This document shows, piece by piece, positions 29,274 through 37,147 of a stretch of DNA of 64,000 bases. Within the stretch, counting starts at the first letter, position 1; every line of letters starts with the position of its first letter. The translations under genes and the position numbers were made by a program. The stretch covers positions 496,001 through 560,000 of the forward strand of contig NZ_VKAC01000001.1 of assembly GCF_008041935.1 (NCBI RefSeq), in the 5' to 3' direction. The stretch comes from Quadrisphaera setariae (GTDB taxonomy: Bacteria > Actinomycetota > Actinomycetes > Actinomycetales > Quadrisphaeraceae). Under the pieces are notes generated by a model. It saw only the letters and a list, made by a program, of their open reading frames with translations. It ran no database searches and had not been told where the DNA came from.

Positions 29274-30275
29274 TCAGGCGTCGAGGAGCGCCAGGTCCGC
29301 GTCGACCATGGCGCCGACGACGTCGGCGAACGGCACCGTCGGGGCCCATCCCAGCGCCTCGCGGGCGAGGGTCGGGTCGCCCACCAGGTCCGCGGCGTCG
29401 TTGGGGCGCACGAACGCCGGGTCGGTGCGCACCAGGTGCAGCCACTCGGCCACCCCGGCCCGCGCGAACGCGGCCGCCACGAACTCCTCCACGGAGTGCG
29501 ACGTGCCCGTGGCCACCACGAGGTCGAGCGGCTCGGTGTGCCGCAGCGCCGCCACCATCGCGCGCACCGTGTCGGGGGCCCAGCCCCAGTCGCGGCGGGC
29601 GGCGGTGTTGCCGAGCACCAGCTCGTCGGCGCGGCCGCGGGCGATCGCCGCCACCGTCGACGTGATCTTGCGGGTCACGAAGCGCGCGGGGCGCCGCGGC
29701 GACTCGTGCGGGTAGAGCACGGCGTTCACCGCGAAGGCGCCGCCCGCCCGGTGCGCCTGCACGAGGTGGTGGGCGTAGGCCTTGGCGGCGCCGTAGGGGT
29801 TGGTCGGCACCACCGGCGTCGACTCGTCCTGCGGGGTCACCCCCGAACCCGCGTAGACCTCGGCGCTGGACGCCTGGAGCACGCGGACCTGGCCTCCGCT
29901 GGAGCTCGTGGTCTGCTCCGCCGCGTGCAGGAGCGCCGCCGGGAGCACGGCGTTGAGGAGGGCCGTCTCCACCGGCTCCTCCCACGAGCGCGCCACCGAG
30001 CTCTCCGCCGCGAGGTTGTAGACCTCGTCGGGGCGCACGTCACGCACCAGCGCGTCGGCCGCGCCCGGGTCGAGCAGGTCGATCGTGTGGACGACGAGGC
30101 GGTCGCCGAGCGCCTCCAGGTGGGGCGGCAGCGGACCGCTGCCGCGCCGCACCCCGTGGACGAGCGTGCCTTCGGCGGCGAGCAGCTCGGCGAGGTAGCC
30201 GCCGTCCTGCCCGGTGAGCCCGGTGACCAGCGCGACCCGGCGCGCGGCAGCCGGAGGGGCCGTCTGCTCGCTCAC
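29274..30275 (-). CDS. GDP-mannose 4,6-dehydratase paralog (second copy)
   Basis: The 333-residue SDR protein follows the Gmd pattern: the NADP-binding GLTGQDGGYLAEL, NLAAESSVARSWEEP, the catalytic SSAEVYAG with YGAAK, PHESPRRPARFVTRKI and RRDWGWAPD. In the catalytic S/T-x-E element it has Ser-Ala-Glu, where the neighbour has Ser-Ser-Glu. It is much more divergent and Ala-rich than the upstream copy. GTG 30275 overlaps the upstream stop (GTGA). It may be a second dehydratase with altered specificity, or the partner of a heteromer. No fucose synthase or reductase gene is present nearby. Confidence 0.78.
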   Translation of the reverse strand: MSEQTAPPAAARRVALVTGLTGQDGGYLAELLAAEGTLVHGVRRGSGPLPPHLEALGDRLVVHTIDLLDPGAADALVRDVRPDEVYNLAAESSVARSWEEPVETALLNAVLPAALLHAAEQTTSSSGGQVRVLQASSAEVYAGSGVTPQDESTPVVPTNPYGAAKAYAHHLVQAHRAGGAFAVNAVLYPHESPRRPARFVTRKITSTVAAIARGRADELVLGNTAARRDWGWAPDTVRAMVAALRHTEPLDLVVATGTSHSVEEFVAAAFARAGVAEWLHLVRTDPAFVRPNDAADLVGDPTLAREALGWAPTVPFADVVGAMVDADLALLDA

Positions 30276-31261
30276 TTGCCGGCGAGCGCCTTCTGCTCGG
30301 CGAGGTCGGAGTCGACCATCATCTGCACCAGCTCGGTGAAGCCGACCTTCAGCTCCCAGCCGAGCTGGGTCTTGGCCTTGGTCGGGTCGCCGATGAGCAG
30401 GTCGACCTCGGCCGGGCGCATGAAGGCCGGGTCCTGGCGGACGTAGCCGGACCAGTCGCTGATGCCGACGTGGGCGAAGGCGACGTCGAGCAGCTCGCTG
30501 ATGGCGTGGGTCTCCCCGGTGGCCACGACGTAGTCGTCGGCGGTGTCCTGCTGCAGCATCCGCCACATCGCCTCGACGTAGTCCCCGGCGAAGCCCCAGT
30601 CGCGGCGGGCGTCGAGGTTGCCCAGCACGAGTTCATCCTGCAGGCCCAGGCTGATGCGGGCGACGGCCTGGGTGACCTTGCGGGTGACGAACTCCGGGCC
30701 GCGCCGGGGGCTCTCGTGGTTGAACAGGATCCCCGAGGAGGCGTGCATGCCGTAGGACTCGCGGTAGTTGATGGTCATGTAGTGGCCGAAGACCTTGGCC
30801 ACGCCGTAGGGGGAGCGGGGCCACAGCAGGGTGTCCTCCTTCTGGGGCACGGCCTGGACCTTGCCGTACATCTCCGAGGAGGAGGCCTGGTAGAAGCGGA
30901 CCTTGGTCATGTCGTCGCCGGAGTAGAGGCGGACGGCTTCCAGGGCGTTGAGCACCCCCTTGCCGGTGACCTCGGCGGTGAGGTCGGCGTTCTCCCAGGA
31001 GTAGGCCACGAAGGAGATGGCACCGAGGTTGTAGAACTCGTCGGGCCGGGCGATGTTGAGGGCCCTGATCAGGGAGGACAGGTCCATGAGGTCGCCGGTG
31101 AGGACCTTGACGCCGGGGACCTCGCGGGCCAGCAGCGGCAGCTTGGGGTTGTTCTGCCCGCGGACCAGGCCGTACACCTCATAGCCCTTGGACAGCAGCA
31201 GCTCGGACAGGTACAGACCGTCCTGGCCGGTGACTCCGGTGATCAGCGCGCGCTTGGCCAT
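30272..31261 (-). CDS. gmd: GDP-mannose 4,6-dehydratase
   Basis: Gmd converts GDP-D-mannose to GDP-4-keto-6-deoxy-D-mannose, the precursor of GDP-fucose, GDP-rhamnose and related sugars. The 329-residue protein has GVTGQDGLYLSELL, FYNLGAISFVAYSW, the catalytic ASSSEMYG plus SPYGVAK, FNHESPRRGPEFVTRKVTQ and ARRDWGFAGDYVEAMW, all typical of active Gmd. Its codon use is less extremely GC-rich than the paralog. It is the first gene of a two-gene operon and starts at ATG 31261. ManB encoded at 48.5 kb could supply mannose-1-phosphate. Confidence 0.93.
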   Translation of the reverse strand: MAKRALITGVTGQDGLYLSELLLSKGYEVYGLVRGQNNPKLPLLAREVPGVKVLTGDLMDLSSLIRALNIARPDEFYNLGAISFVAYSWENADLTAEVTGKGVLNALEAVRLYSGDDMTKVRFYQASSSEMYGKVQAVPQKEDTLLWPRSPYGVAKVFGHYMTINYRESYGMHASSGILFNHESPRRGPEFVTRKVTQAVARISLGLQDELVLGNLDARRDWGFAGDYVEAMWRMLQQDTADDYVVATGETHAISELLDVAFAHVGISDWSGYVRQDPAFMRPAEVDLLIGDPTKAKTQLGWELKVGFTELVQMMVDSDLAEQKALAGK

Positions 31262-31345: not shown

Positions 31346-31384
31346 CCGGACGAGGGTGCCGTACCCGGACAGCGACAAGACGGC
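31346..31384 (+). promoter_or_regulatory. Guanidine-III riboswitch (mini-ykkC family, ykkC-III)
   Basis: The 39-base segment matches the ykkC-III consensus almost fully, including CCGGACGAGG, GCCGTACCCGG and GACAAGACGGC. Stem 1 is 31346-31349 with 31365-31368; stem 2 is 31358-31362 with 31380-31384, together an H-type pseudoknot. The ribosome binding site GGGAGG (31398-31403) starts 14 bases after it and the SMR gene at 31410. Guanidinium binding would therefore most likely act on translation initiation of the exporter. Confidence 0.92.
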
Positions 31385-31409
31385 CGTGCTGTCGACTGGG
31401 AGGTCACCC

Positions 31410-31724
31410 GTGTCCTGGCTCGTGCTCGTCCTGTCCGGTGTGCTGGAGGCCGTCTGGGCCACCGCCCTGGGCCGGTCGGAGGGCTTCACCCGGCCCGGCC
31501 CGACCGTCGTCTTCGCCGTCGTGATCCTCGCGAGCATGGCCGGCCTGGCCTACGCGATGCGCGAGCTGCCCGTCGGCACGTCCTACGCGGTGTGGGTGGG
31601 CATCGGCGCGACGCTCACGGTCGCGTACGCGATGGCCACCGGCACCGAGCCGGTCTCCGTGCTCAAGGTGGTGTTCCTGGCGATGATCGTCGGCGGCGTG
31701 GTGGGCCTCAAGCTCGTCCACTGA
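31410..31724 (+). CDS. Small multidrug resistance family guanidinium exporter (Gdx/SugE-type)
   Basis: The 104-residue protein has four membrane helices. The essential Glu is at position 13 in SGVLEAVWATAL, and GFTRPGPTVVF, LPVGTSYAVWVGIGA and a C-terminal LKLVH follow. These features favour the Gdx/SugE branch, which exports guanidinium in exchange for protons, over EmrE-like drug pumps. GTG 31410 is fixed by GGGAGG six bases upstream. A longer open frame begins inside the riboswitch and is not the start. The preceding guanidine-III riboswitch independently supports the substrate. Its last 17 bases overlap the convergent TIGR03089 gene. Confidence 0.93.
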   Translation: MSWLVLVLSGVLEAVWATALGRSEGFTRPGPTVVFAVVILASMAGLAYAMRELPVGTSYAVWVGIGATLTVAYAMATGTEPVSVLKVVFLAMIVGGVVGLKLVH

Positions 31725-32449: not shown

Positions 32450-33475
32450 GTGGACCGGGCGGGGGGAGCGGGGGCTGCTCCGGCGGCGCAGCGCACGCTC
32501 GTGCTGCGGCAGCCGCTCGACCTGTCCGCCACGCTCGGGCCGCTGCGCCGCGGCGGCGGGGACCCCGCGGTGCGCCGCGTGGGCGTCGGGCCGTGGGCCA
32601 CGTGGTGGTGGGCCACGCGGACCCCTGCGGGCACTGCGCTGATGAGCCTGCAGCACCTGCCCAGTGGCGGTCCGCACGGAGCGGTGCGGGCCGCGGCGTG
32701 GGGCGCGGGCGCCGACTGCGCGGTGGCGGGCGTGCCCGAGCTGCTCGGGGAGGACCAGGACGGCAGCGCGTTCGTCCCCCGCGCCGAGCACGCCGCGCTG
32801 GTCTCCGCGTGGCGCCGCCACCGGGGCGTGCGCGTGCCGCGCACCCGCGCCGTCTTCGAGGCGCTGGCCGGCGCCGCCATCGAGCAGGTGGTGACCGGCG
32901 TGGAGGCGCACCGCGCGTGGCGCGACCTGCTGCGCCGCTTCGGGGAGGTGGCGCCCGGAGGCCTCCACGACGCCGGGCCGGTCGGGCCGTCGGCGCCCGG
33001 AGGCCCCGCCGAGGGCATGCGCGTGCCCCCGACAGCACGGGAGTGGGCCGCGATCCCCAGCTGGGAGTGGCTGCGCGCGGGCGTGGAGGAGCGCCGCCGC
33101 CGCGTGGTGGTCGGCGCCTCGCGGTGCGCGCCCGCGCTGGAGCGCACCGTGCTCCTGCCGCCCGAGCGCGTCGAGCCGGCCCTGCGGACGCTGCCGGGGG
33201 TGGGCGTGTGGACGGCGGCCGAGGTGCGCCACCGCGCCCACGGAGACCCCGACGCCTTCTCCTTCGCCGACTACCACGTGGCCAAGAACGTCTCCTACGC
33301 CCTGACCGGCCAGGTGCTGGACGACGCCGGCTGCGCCGAGGTCATCGAGTGCTACCGCGGGCACCGCTACCGGGTGCAGCGGCTGCTGGAGCTCGACGGC
33401 ATCGCCAGGCCCCGCCGTGCGGCGCGGATGACGCTGCCCACCCACGTGCCGGTGGCCACCGGCATGAGGTCGTGA
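32450..33475 (+). CDS. DNA-3-methyladenine glycosylase II-like (AlkA/HhH-GPD)
   Basis: The 341-residue protein carries the helix-hairpin-helix GPD motif LRTLPGVGVWTAAEV, followed by the catalytic-Asp region FSFADYHVAKN, in its C-terminal third. An N-terminal region with RTLVLRQPLDLSATLGPL matches the AlkA beta domain. Such enzymes excise alkylated purines during base excision repair. GTG 32450 is preceded by AGGATGG. There is no Cys cluster for an iron-sulfur site. It diverges from the TIGR03089 gene and is not obviously part of an operon. Confidence 0.85.
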   Translation: MDRAGGAGAAPAAQRTLVLRQPLDLSATLGPLRRGGGDPAVRRVGVGPWATWWWATRTPAGTALMSLQHLPSGGPHGAVRAAAWGAGADCAVAGVPELLGEDQDGSAFVPRAEHAALVSAWRRHRGVRVPRTRAVFEALAGAAIEQVVTGVEAHRAWRDLLRRFGEVAPGGLHDAGPVGPSAPGGPAEGMRVPPTAREWAAIPSWEWLRAGVEERRRRVVVGASRCAPALERTVLLPPERVEPALRTLPGVGVWTAAEVRHRAHGDPDAFSFADYHVAKNVSYALTGQVLDDAGCAEVIECYRGHRYRVQRLLELDGIARPRRAARMTLPTHVPVATGMRS

Positions 33476-33687
33476 ACCACCCCTGACCCACGCCCGCTGG
33501 GTCGTCGAACCGCGCTGACCTGCGGATCTGGCGGAGCTGGCGGTGCTGGGCTCTGCCGTCCGGGCGATCGCCGTCCCGAATCCCTGTGGCGAACGGGGGA
33601 CGAGATCACATCGCCCGTCAAGCGGACGACGCCCTCCGTCGATGCGTTCTTCGTAGACCACCCGTCGAAGGCATCACGGAGGAAGCC

Positions 33688-34098
33688 ATGCGCAGGAAAA
33701 CCGCCATCGTCCTAGGCGTGTCGGGCGCTGCCCTGGCGCTGACCGCCAGCAGCGCGTTCACGGCGGGAGGACTCACCTTCGCGACCGGTGCGACGGGGTT
33801 CATCGGCGGCAGCCAGCAGGTGACCATCTCCGGCACCGAGGTCAGCTCCATCGAGTACACGAAGAACACCGCTGGTGACGAGCTGACCGCTGCCAAGTTC
33901 GTCTTCTCCGACACCAACGCCGTGGGCAAGACCCCGACCATCACCCTCAACGACGGCTCCAGCTCGGGCGTGACGGACTGGACGTGCACGGCGGTGGCCA
34001 CGGCGAGCACGGTCACCTCCTCGACCTGCTCCAAGGGCACCAGCGGCACCGCCGTCACCCTGGCGTCGCTCGTCTCCATCAAGCTGACCGTCGCCTGA
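33688..34098 (+). CDS. Small secreted protein with a SipW-type signal region
   Basis: The 136-residue product begins MRRKTAIVLGVSGAALALTASSAF, a signal sequence with a basic start and short hydrophobic core. A Thr/Ser/Gly-rich beta-type body with two cysteines (WTCTA and STCSK) follows. GGAGG sits a few bases before ATG 33688. It is followed 13 bases later by a SipW-like signal peptidase gene. That pairing recalls TasA/camelysin-type subunits processed by SipW, and I infer that this is the substrate. No close family is recognised, and its codons are less GC-extreme than its neighbours. Confidence 0.72.
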   Translation: MRRKTAIVLGVSGAALALTASSAFTAGGLTFATGATGFIGGSQQVTISGTEVSSIEYTKNTAGDELTAAKFVFSDTNAVGKTPTITLNDGSSSGVTDWTCTAVATASTVTSSTCSKGTSGTAVTLASLVSIKLTVA

Positions 34099-34111
34099 TC
34101 CCCTTGGTCCT

Positions 34112-36202
34112 GTGACCGCACGGCAGCGCCTCGCCGCCGCCGCGACCGCCCTCGCGGTGGTCGTGGCGGCGGCGGTCGTGCTGCCCGTGCTCCTGGGGCA
34201 GATGAAGCTCGTGGTCACCCACGGCGTCAGCATGCAGCCCCTCTACCACCAGGGAGACCTGGTGGCCGTGTGGCGGGAGGACCACTACCGGGTCGGCGAC
34301 ATCATCGCCTTCGACCACGACGGCACCGACGCCAGCAAGACCCGCGTGCTCCACCGCGTCATCTCCGCCGGCGACGGGGGGTTCGTCACCCAGGGCGACA
34401 ACAACCCGAACCCGGACCCGGGCGTCACCCATCCCGACCGGGTCCTCGGCCGCGCCGTCCTCCACCTGGCCGGCGCGGGCGTCTGGGTGCAGCGCGCGGG
34501 AAGCCCCTGGGGCATCGCCCTCCTCGTCGGGGTGCCCCTCCTGCTGTCCCTCGGCGGCGGGGCTGCTGCCAGCGTCGGTCGTGGCGCCAGCCGAGCCCGC
34601 GGCGCCAGGGCGCGGCGCGCCGGGCAGCCCCTGGCGCCCGCGGCCCGTTCCCAGCTCCGCGTCGGCGCGCACACCAACCCTCCCGGCTCCGACCGCTGGG
34701 GCTCCCGGGCGGGACCCCCGACCCGGTCGAGCACCGCCGTCCCCACCCCGGGCGCGAACCCCATCGCCCTCGGGGTCGTCCTGGTGCTCGGGGCCGCCGG
34801 TCTCGGGCTCGGGGTCAGCGGCTGGACGACGCCGCCCGACACCACCACCACCCAGCCCGCAGCGGACCTCGTGCGCACGGCGACGTTCTCCTACGCCGCG
34901 GACGTGCGCCGCTCACCCGTCTACGACGGCTCCGTCGTCACCTCCCCCACCCCGGTCTTCCGCGCGGTGGCCACCGGCGTCCACGCCGACCTCGTCTACC
35001 GCGGCGCCGACGGCGAAGCGGGCAGCATCGACCTCACCGCCCTCCTGTCCAGCCCGGGAGGGTGGACGACGACGGTGCCCGTCGCCACCGGTCTCCGCTA
35101 CAGCGGCGGGTCGGCGGACCTGCAGGAGCTGCTCGACCTCGACGCGTTCCTCGCGCGCTCCGCGGCCGCCGCCGCCATCACCAAGCTCGACCCCCAGCCG
35201 CTGGCGGTGACGCTGACGGCCACGATCACCCCAGCCGACGCTGACCACGCCTCAGACCCGACGGCCGGTGGCCCGCTCGTCGCCACCATGCCGCTGACCG
35301 TGAGCGACGCCCAGGTCGGCCTCTCCAGCGCGGACGCCGAGCTTGTGGCCACCGCCAAGGTGCCGCAGACGCGGACCGTCACCTCACCCGGTGCCGTCTC
35401 CGTGGTGGGGATGGAGCTGCCCGTGCAGCCGGTGCGCGTCGCCGCCGTCGTCCTGCTCGTCCTCGCGGCTCTCGGTGGCCTCGTGCTGGCGCTCGTCACT
35501 GCGCTCGCCCGTTCCCGCGCCGCACACGCCGACGCGCGCAGCACCGAGACCGAGCGCGTGGCCGCGTGCCTCGCCGACCTGCTCGTGCCCGTCGTCGAGA
35601 TCCCCGGCGCGGACGCCGCCGTCGAGGTCATCTCGCCCGAGGCGCTGGAGCGCCTCGCCCGCGCCCACGAGCTCCCGGTGCTGCACCGCCGCGACCACGG
35701 GGCGGCGGTCTTCGCCGTCGTCGTGGAGGGCACCACCTACACCTGGTCGGAGCACGACGGCGAGGTCGTCTCGGACGAGGGGTTCCTCCTCGACCACGTG
35801 CTCCACCACGCGGACGGGGCGGGACCGATGCCCTGGGACGAGCCGTGCGGAGCGTCGCCGTCGTCGTCGCCCTTCGCGGCGACGACCCGGCCGGACGCTC
35901 CCGAGCACTGGAGCACTCCCGACCCCCAGGCCGCTCCGGCCCCCCTGTCACCGCGCCGCGCGGCGCGCGCGGCGCTGGCGGCCCAGCGCGAACCCGACCC
36001 CGACGAGCCGACCTTCGCGGAGCTCCTCCAGCCCGACGCCTTCAGCCGCCTCGTGGACCCCGATCCGTTCGCCCGCCTCGGGCCAGCGGCGCGAGGACCG
36101 GCGCGGCGCGCGCGCTCCGGTGACGGAGCTGGTCAGAGGACAGGTCAGCTCGGCTCGACCCGGCGGGAGCTCCCGCCGGGTCCTTCGCACGCCCGGCGCT
36201 GA
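34112..36202 (+). CDS. SipW-like signal peptidase I fused to a DUF5305-like membrane region
   Basis: A single 696-residue frame joins two proteins usually seen as separate genes. Residues 1-150 form a signal peptidase with an N-terminal membrane helix, the catalytic Ser in THGVSMQPLY, KTRVLHRVIS (the His replacing the bacterial Lys, as in SipW and eukaryotic enzymes) and TQGDNN, followed by a second helix. After a basic linker, residues 205-480 show a helix, an extracytoplasmic beta-rich domain (YSGGSADLQELLDLDAFLAR) and another helix, consistent with DUF5305. A cytoplasmic tail with ALERLARAHELPVLHR follows. GTG 34112 is the likely start. No frameshift or internal start with a good ribosome binding site is evident. 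Confidence 0.78.
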   Translation: MTARQRLAAAATALAVVVAAAVVLPVLLGQMKLVVTHGVSMQPLYHQGDLVAVWREDHYRVGDIIAFDHDGTDASKTRVLHRVISAGDGGFVTQGDNNPNPDPGVTHPDRVLGRAVLHLAGAGVWVQRAGSPWGIALLVGVPLLLSLGGGAAASVGRGASRARGARARRAGQPLAPAARSQLRVGAHTNPPGSDRWGSRAGPPTRSSTAVPTPGANPIALGVVLVLGAAGLGLGVSGWTTPPDTTTTQPAADLVRTATFSYAADVRRSPVYDGSVVTSPTPVFRAVATGVHADLVYRGADGEAGSIDLTALLSSPGGWTTTVPVATGLRYSGGSADLQELLDLDAFLARSAAAAAITKLDPQPLAVTLTATITPADADHASDPTAGGPLVATMPLTVSDAQVGLSSADAELVATAKVPQTRTVTSPGAVSVVGMELPVQPVRVAAVVLLVLAALGGLVLALVTALARSRAAHADARSTETERVAACLADLLVPVVEIPGADAAVEVISPEALERLARAHELPVLHRRDHGAAVFAVVVEGTTYTWSEHDGEVVSDEGFLLDHVLHHADGAGPMPWDEPCGASPSSSPFAATTRPDAPEHWSTPDPQAAPAPLSPRRAARAALAAQREPDPDEPTFAELLQPDAFSRLVDPDPFARLGPAARGPARRARSGDGAGQRTGQLGSTRRELPPGPSHARR

Positions 36203-36217: not shown

Positions 36218-37147
36218 TCAGAGGCGCAGGCGGCGCAGCAGCCGCGGCGGCGCCCACCGCAGCACCTCGGTCACGGCCTGCGCTCCCGGCGGCGCCCACA
36301 CGACGTCGCGCTCGTCCTCCAGGCCCTGCGCGGTGAGGTCGGCGACGGCCTCCTTGGTGGTCGCCAGCCAGGCGGACCGTCCCGCCGTCATCCGCGTCCG
36401 CACGAAGCCCGGGCGCACCACCACCACGCGCACGCCGTCACCGCGGACGGCCTCCCGCAGCCCTGAGGCGAAGGCGTCGAGCCCGGCCTTGCTGGCCCCG
36501 TAGGCGAAGTCGGTGGAGCGCGCCCGCACCGCCGCGGCGCTGGAGAGCACCACGAGCGTGCCGCCGCGCTGGGTCTTCAACCGCTGCGCCGCCTCGGCGG
36601 CCAGCGCCACCGGCGCCGCCGTGTTGACCTGCACGAGGTCGGCCGCAGCGGTCGGGTCCTGCCAGGAGCGCTTGCCGTCAGGCAGCACCCCCACCGCCAG
36701 GACGACGACGTCGACGGGACCGACCGGCACGCCGCCGGCCACTCCGCGGGACCCGAACGCCTCCGCGAGCGCGGGTGACCACGTGGACGGTGCGCGGGCG
36801 TCCAGCGGCACGGCCCGCGCCGCGTGCCCCTCGGCGACCAGGGCCGTCACCGCCTCGGACAGCCGCGGGCCGGGACGTCCGGCGAGCACCACGTCCAGCG
36901 CGCGGTCGCGCCCGAGGCGGCGCACCAGGGCGAGGCCGATGTCGGAGGTGCCGCCGAGCAGCACCACGCGCTTCGGCTCGTGCGGCGGGCGGACCGGCAG
37001 CGCGGGCGGGGCGGCGGGGCCGGCCGCCGGGTCGCCGTCGCGTCCGGCCAGTCGGCTGGCGATCTGGTCCGAGAGGCGGTCTGCGAGGTCACCGAGCGGC
37101 AGCTGGGGGAGGCGCACCCCGACCATGCTGGCCGAGGGGCCGCTCAT
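36218..37147 (-). CDS. DprE2-like decaprenylphosphoryl-2-keto-ribose reductase (SDR family)
   Basis: The 309-residue SDR enzyme has RVVLLGGTSDIGLALVRRL, VLSSAAAVRARSTDFAYGASKAGLDAF (Ser-Tyr-Lys triad) and VVVVRPGFVRTRMTAG. It ends in VWAPPGAQAV and RWAPPRLLRRL. Order and C-terminus match mycobacterial DprE2, which reduces the 2-keto intermediate to decaprenylphosphoryl-arabinose. A roughly 55-residue Pro-rich N-terminal extension with a short helix is added. No DprE1 oxidase gene is present in the window. It converges with the DUF5305 fusion gene with only 15 bases between stops and diverges from cofD. Confidence 0.78.
   Translation of the reverse strand: MSGPSASMVGVRLPQLPLGDLADRLSDQIASRLAGRDGDPAAGPAAPPALPVRPPHEPKRVVLLGGTSDIGLALVRRLGRDRALDVVLAGRPGPRLSEAVTALVAEGHAARAVPLDARAPSTWSPALAEAFGSRGVAGGVPVGPVDVVVLAVGVLPDGKRSWQDPTAAADLVQVNTAAPVALAAEAAQRLKTQRGGTLVVLSSAAAVRARSTDFAYGASKAGLDAFASGLREAVRGDGVRVVVVRPGFVRTRMTAGRSAWLATTKEAVADLTAQGLEDERDVVWAPPGAQAVTEVLRWAPPRLLRRLRL

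Follow-up and report, generated by a model that had tools for sequence, protein, structure and literature searches.

A SipW-type signal peptidase fused to DUF5305 and its small secreted neighbour in Quadrisphaera setariae: a candidate secretion module linking a surface subunit to the cytoplasm

What does a signal peptidase do when it is built into the same polypeptide as a DUF5305 membrane region and is encoded directly behind a small secreted protein? The question is raised by a locus in the 4.9 Mb, high-GC actinobacterial genome of Quadrisphaera setariae, within the stretch of 64,000 nucleotides analysed here (the window). A sequence-only reading of this DNA had described a small secreted gene preceding a 696-residue fusion ORF, and both genes were located where it had placed them. 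The features of the locus are as follows.

33678..33683, plus strand: Shine-Dalgarno-like GGAGGA 5' of the small gene, read in the sequence
33688..34098, plus strand: small secreted protein gene, ATG start, 136 aa (ORF list and alignment of relatives)
33688..33756, plus strand: predicted SipW-type signal peptide, residues 1-23, ending ...TASSA ahead of FTA (Ala23-Phe24 alignment)
33757..34095, plus strand: predicted mature subunit, a disordered N-terminal segment (to ~residue 44) followed by an eight-stranded beta sandwich (AlphaFold2 model)
34112..36202, plus strand: SipW-type signal peptidase/DUF5305 fusion gene, GTG start, 696 aa, no internal stops
34112..34504, plus strand: TM1 and extracellular Ser-His peptidase domain, aa 1-131 (TIGR02228)
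34229-34231, 34352-34354 and 34415-34417, plus strand: catalytic Ser40, His81 and Asp102, invariant across 51 homologues
34505..34756, plus strand: TM2 (aa 132-151) and arginine-rich disordered linker (aa 152-215), inferred cytoplasmic (hydropathy, model, positive-inside rule)
34757..34828, plus strand: TM3, aa 216-239 (model, hydropathy)
34829..35422, plus strand: DUF5305 ectodomain, beta-rich, aa 240-437 (pLDDT mostly >90, DUF5305 match, homologue profile)
35423..35536, plus strand: TM4 running on into a helical stalk, aa 438-475 (one helix, 438-475, in the model)
35537..35755, plus strand: DUF5305 cytoplasmic alpha/beta domain, about aa 476-548 (conservation, position inside the DUF5305 profile, model)
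35756..36199, plus strand: mostly disordered tail, aa 549-696 (pLDDT mostly <50)

The GTG of the fusion ORF lies 13 bases past the stop of the small gene. Since the downstream neighbour (36218-37147, a short-chain dehydrogenase) is convergent with the fusion gene, and 212 bp separate the small gene from the end of the upstream same-strand gene (32642-33475), the two genes form a natural two-gene unit. The stretch GGCATCACGGAGGAAGCCATG at the Shine-Dalgarno-like site shows no difference from its counterpart in a congener. A GC-based gene caller ranked an antisense ORF above the small gene; on comparative grounds the plus frame is the coding frame, because more than 70 homologues align to it and the 13 of its 22 signal-peptide codons that differ from the congener have changed only synonymously. 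No phage or defence link of the module was found. Elsewhere in the window are two overlapping adjacent GDP-mannose 4,6-dehydratase-like genes (29274-31261, minus strand) and a small multidrug resistance (SMR) family transporter gene (31356-31724).

The peptidase part scores 62.1 bits against TIGR02228, the ER/SipW-type signal peptidase I model, above its cut-off of 51.85, and 33.3 bits against the Bacillus SipW equivalog NF046067 (cut-off 190), of which it is not a member. The solved structures nearest to it by sequence are SEC11A and SEC11C (E ~1e-13), which share the Ser-His ER-type peptidase and are general signal peptidase subunits without DUF5305. The DUF5305 match (PF17231; gathering cut-off 29) reaches 27.9 bits by hmmscan and 30.5 bits in the whole-genome search, while the congener orthologue scores 41.1 bits, clearly over the cut-off, and 44 of the 51 fusion homologues match the family. 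The sequence-only reading of a Ser-His peptidase joined to DUF5305 is therefore borne out by the TIGR02228 score, the orthologue's DUF5305 score and the invariant catalytic residues. Its description of a long unexplained cytoplasmic tail stands in part: profile positions 75-216 of 217 map to aa 391-544, which comprise the end of the ectodomain, the transmembrane helix and the cytoplasmic domain, so that the ordered portion is DUF5305's own domain, and some 150 further residues at the C-terminus lie beyond it and are for the most part predicted to be disordered. The AlphaFold2 model of the fusion, built from 51 sequences, has a mean pLDDT of 75.9 and places the small alpha/beta domain at aa 479-546. 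In Foldseek searches the ectodomain gave no significant structural match, and the top match to the fusion was SipA of Streptococcus pyogenes (E 4.6e-3). Homology between the small protein and the fusion ectodomain was considered and dropped, as profile comparison found no similarity between them.

The small protein belongs to a family of 62 aligned members without a name and is present in a single copy in this genome; neither it nor its relatives fit any Pfam or NCBIfam family above cut-off. Its relatives share conserved glycines, one tyrosine and two cysteines (Cys100 and Cys114), and the AlphaFold2 model, based on 62 sequences, predicts the sandwich confidently from residue 45. By analogy with TasA, a fibre protein processed by a SipW-type peptidase (PMC9674648), we infer cleavage between Ala23 and Phe24, a pair that is invariant in a 10-sequence alignment; an A[FYS] motif was found in 65 of 73 cases. 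Comparison with the congener indicates that the signal peptide is under strong constraint: all 23 residues are identical and its 14 base differences, spread over 13 codons, are all synonymous, compared with 54 of 111 identical residues (49%) in the mature part.

Membership of the TasA family was rejected as not supported by sequence. The PDB profile search returned no TasA chain for the small protein up to E = 10, Foldseek gave nothing significant and no TasA among its 50 best matches, and the NCBIfam TasA model touched one of the 62 family members, at E 0.03 only. The predicted layout is nevertheless compatible with donor-strand exchange, because the donor strand of TasA (residues 28-38) occupies the same position, directly after the cleaved signal (PMC9674648). 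Assembly of the small subunit into fibres is thus a plausible further step, to which we assign slightly less than even chances.

Is the arrangement a peculiarity of this genome? In the congener both genes are found in synteny, with the same upstream neighbours and the same fusion, at 71% identity; DUF5305 is absent from four of the five sampled congeners, which counts against our preferred reading. An earlier scan of genome contigs with the single fusion protein gave no matches. A scan of GTDB genomes was then seeded with the full-fusion alignment and the best 80 loci were kept, so that the counts measure recurrence and not an unbiased frequency. Peptidase and DUF5305 share one frame in 73 of these best 80 loci, from Actinomycetota and Chloroflexota, and lie in adjacent frames in two more. 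Likewise, in 73 of the best 80 loci the small gene is the immediate upstream gene, in the same orientation, at an estimated gap of 5-206 bp; five fusions lack a detected small gene, some of them beginning at or near a contig edge. The homologue search that the sequence-only reading had proposed, for the same fusion with an adjacent small secreted gene, thus returned both widely, and the module sits in unrelated gene neighbourhoods across the two phyla. At seven loci (L086, L092, L099, L109, L121, L134 and L143) the small gene is repeated in tandem, with two to four copies ahead of a single fusion gene.

The two parts had also been thought to be usually separate genes, which holds for haloarchaea (one annotated case) and a minority of Chloroflexota; in Actinomycetota and most sampled Chloroflexota they are fused. 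Every clear DUF5305 match in the Actinomycetota samples is in frame with a SipW-type peptidase (L033, L057, L059, L060 and L068-L072), with the exception of L058, where the two occupy overlapping separate frames. In the class of genome G848 (Chloroflexota, reached via L147), a family-seeded sample of 396 genomes, 29 match DUF5305 and ~21 of those are peptidase-fused. Weak DUF5305 matches at L066/L073 and L067/L074 proved false, L073 being a LepB-type peptidase and L074 showing no module, and among the neighbours examined at the haloarchaeal plasmid SipW loci L075, L076 and L077 Pfam found no DUF5305. Halarchaeum (L201) shows the separate form: the gene for a secreted protein with a SAFT-type signal is followed in turn by those for a signal peptidase, another secreted protein and a DUF5305 protein scoring 113.6 bits, and a receiver/PAS/GAF/HTH regulator gene comes next. 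Among Chloroflexota, L196 keeps separate genes in the Halarchaeum order, and at L199 the peptidase gene adjoins that of DUF5305. Because such neighbouring forms exist, the fusion unites two functions that also travel as separate genes. At L139, L142 and L151 the small gene accompanies a peptidase and the ectodomain is missing, so DUF5305 is not always required.

The pairing also appears to be specific. Around ~40 stand-alone SipW loci of related genomes, with flanks of 1.5-6 kb, no member of the small family was found, and a second SipW-type peptidase in the source genome (L034) is accompanied by a substrate of another kind, bearing a TYAAFSST signal. Given these two observations, peptidases and substrates appear to be matched to each other. 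The L034 locus (G000:C16, 2857-6590, one strand) holds histidine-kinase-like and response-regulator-like genes, the substrate with the TTYAAFSSTS signal and a stand-alone SipW, and similar arrangements occur in congeners (L035, L038 and L040). A different small secreted family, of the AATLTVD... type, lies beside stand-alone SipW-type peptidases at L161 (6044-6448), L162 (6102-6506) and L149 (4248-4658). The dedicated two-gene system that the sequence-only reading had suggested is supported by the conservation of the pairing in two phyla and by the constraint on the signal peptide, and comparative data make it very probable that the fused peptidase processes the small subunit as its dedicated partner.

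The most conserved segment of the fusion lies on its cytoplasmic side. Residues 476-565 are identical to the congener at 87 of 90 positions (97%; dN 0.02, dS 0.48), identity being lower in the peptidase (61%), the ectodomain (73%) and the tail (54%), and the cytoplasmic alpha/beta domain is also found in haloarchaeal DUF5305. By Pfam the window fusion has no EAL match and no recognisable signalling domain beyond DUF5305's own. Eight relatives, all from Chloroflexota, carry a C-terminal EAL domain at the position of the tail (L095, L096, L118, L133, L136, L147, L184 and L190); inspected by eye, the DDFGTG motif is not intact in any of them, and because it is degenerate, binding of c-di-GMP would be likelier than its hydrolysis. 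The fusion of L092 (6001-8127) has an HD_5 domain with an intact HD...GYP-like motif (by eye), and that of L114 (5959-8094, Actinophytocola xanthii) a HisKA/HATPase in which the phospho-acceptor His is apparently missing (by eye); Pfam found neither HAMP nor GGDEF among the members scanned. At L151 (5923-6726) the peptidase is joined directly to the DUF5305 cytoplasmic domain. The sole recurring third neighbours are two-component regulators, present at about a quarter of the loci and close upstream in several, which is at most suggestive of a conserved third partner. Together, the EAL, HD-GYP and kinase-like domains of relatives, the L151 arrangement and the nearby two-component genes suggest that the cytoplasmic side is regulatory.

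The reading we consider the best, and moderately probable, is a dedicated secretion module in which the fusion cleaves the small subunit and couples the surface state of that subunit to the cytoplasm. The small pre-protein would be exported through Sec, and the extracellular Ser-His domain would cut before Phe24, so that the released subunit is a beta sandwich preceded by an unattached N-terminal arm. The DUF5305 ectodomain, anchored next to the peptidase, would then receive or hold the cleaved subunit at the membrane, while the stalk and conserved cytoplasmic domain would link the state of the subunit to the cell interior, either by sensing or by regulation from inside; taken alone, the steps in which the ectodomain captures or senses the subunit and couples it to the cytoplasm have chances that seem even or slightly better. 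This preferred reading rests on the recurrent fusion, the conserved and specific pairing, the signal-peptide constraint, the invariant catalytic residues and the neighbouring separate-gene forms, together with the signalling domains of relatives, the conserved cytoplasmic domain and the precedents of TasA and BsaA. Against it stand the missing structural matches, the dissimilarity of the small protein and the ectodomain in profile comparison, the window fusion's want of a signalling domain, the degenerate EAL, the congeners without DUF5305 and the ectodomain-less loci.

Known systems offer partial parallels. As in the tapA-sipW-tasA operon of Bacillus subtilis, a dedicated signal peptidase of the Ser-His type neighbours a small, beta-rich secreted substrate that has an Ala|Phe junction; in tapA-sipW-tasA, however, the peptidase gene stands alone, the substrates are larger and there is no DUF5305, and between the small protein and TasA no sequence or fold homology was detected. 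B. subtilis SipW itself has been reported to be bifunctional, acting as a peptidase and in the control of biofilm formation (Terra et al. 2012, as cited in PMC4551309). In the sipW-bsaABCRSD operon of Clostridium perfringens, a SipW-type peptidase processes the fibre protein BsaA and the two-component system BsaR/BsaS is included (PMC7395162). The likeness lies in a SipW peptidase, a secreted protein (polymer-forming there) and a signalling system encoded together there; the C. perfringens signalling genes are separate two-component genes and not a domain fused to the peptidase, and the comparison concerns organization. The Halarchaeum cluster contains the same components, among them signal peptides of the SAFT type and the cytoplasmic domain of DUF5305, as separate genes followed by a separate regulator; this likeness is one of components. 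LapD-type c-di-GMP receptors are transmembrane proteins with a degenerate EAL domain, linked to surface-protein control. The EAL-bearing Chloroflexota relatives resemble them in general terms, whereas the window fusion lacks an EAL and has its peptidase in the same chain.

Other explanations draw on the same evidence. The small protein might form a plain SipW/TasA-like fibre, polymerising by donor-strand exchange through its N-terminal arm, with DUF5305 as a TapA-like anchor or nucleator and no signalling. The TasA-like Ala|Phe cleavage, the predicted disordered residues that precede the sandwich at the donor-strand position of TasA (PMC9674648), the fibres formed by the SipW substrates TasA and BsaA, and the Foldseek match to SipA, a signal-peptidase homologue required for pilus polymerisation, all point this way. 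Yet TasA appears neither in the PDB profile matches up to E = 10 nor in the 50 best Foldseek matches, and this explanation leaves the conservation of the cytoplasmic domain and the EAL, HD-GYP and kinase fusions unexplained; we regard it as unlikely, if worth keeping in view. Alternatively, the fusion could mature its own ligand, the small protein serving as an autocrine or quorum-type signal to the DUF5305 ectodomain, which would suit a single chain holding peptidase, membrane ectodomain and cytoplasmic domain and the two-component regulators close upstream at several loci. Tandem small paralogues, two to four at several loci, are more typical of structural subunits, however, and the SipW substrates with known function are matrix proteins, which makes a ligand improbable.

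That the genes are mere neighbours, with LepB processing the small protein and the fusion acting on something else, is very improbable. Cleavage by LepB was one of the two conditions under which the sequence-only reading would fall, and the co-conservation of the two genes makes it unlikely. The genome does contain a further SipW/substrate pair (L034), and general signal peptidases are presumably present too, but adjacency is kept across two phyla despite unrelated neighbourhoods, and every codon change in the signal peptide is synonymous. A sequencing or assembly error joining two genes, the other condition that the sequence-only reading had named, is refuted by the orthologous fusion in the congener and in 73 further assemblies, with nothing found in its favour.

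Returning to the module that cleaves its subunit and couples it to the cytoplasm, its boldest form is a transmembrane secretion sensor, in which one chain matures a surface subunit and relays its presence or assembly state inward, or is gated by the cell interior, with c-di-GMP-related EAL or HD-GYP domains as the route in some lineages; we advance this tentatively, as somewhat less than an even prospect. If true, surface-protein processing and intracellular signalling would be directly tied together in a peptidase-receptor class that is widespread among Actinomycetota and Chloroflexota. Proteins of matrix fibres are known partners of SipW-type peptidases; here the partner is a small family without a name, in two phyla with few such systems described. 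A literature search of partial coverage, and hence weak evidence, found no text on DUF5305, and the EAL, HD-GYP and kinase-like relatives make a role for this family as a coupling module in the membrane open to test. These relatives suggest that some bacteria may use the very enzyme that releases the subunits of a surface structure to sense or gate that structure.
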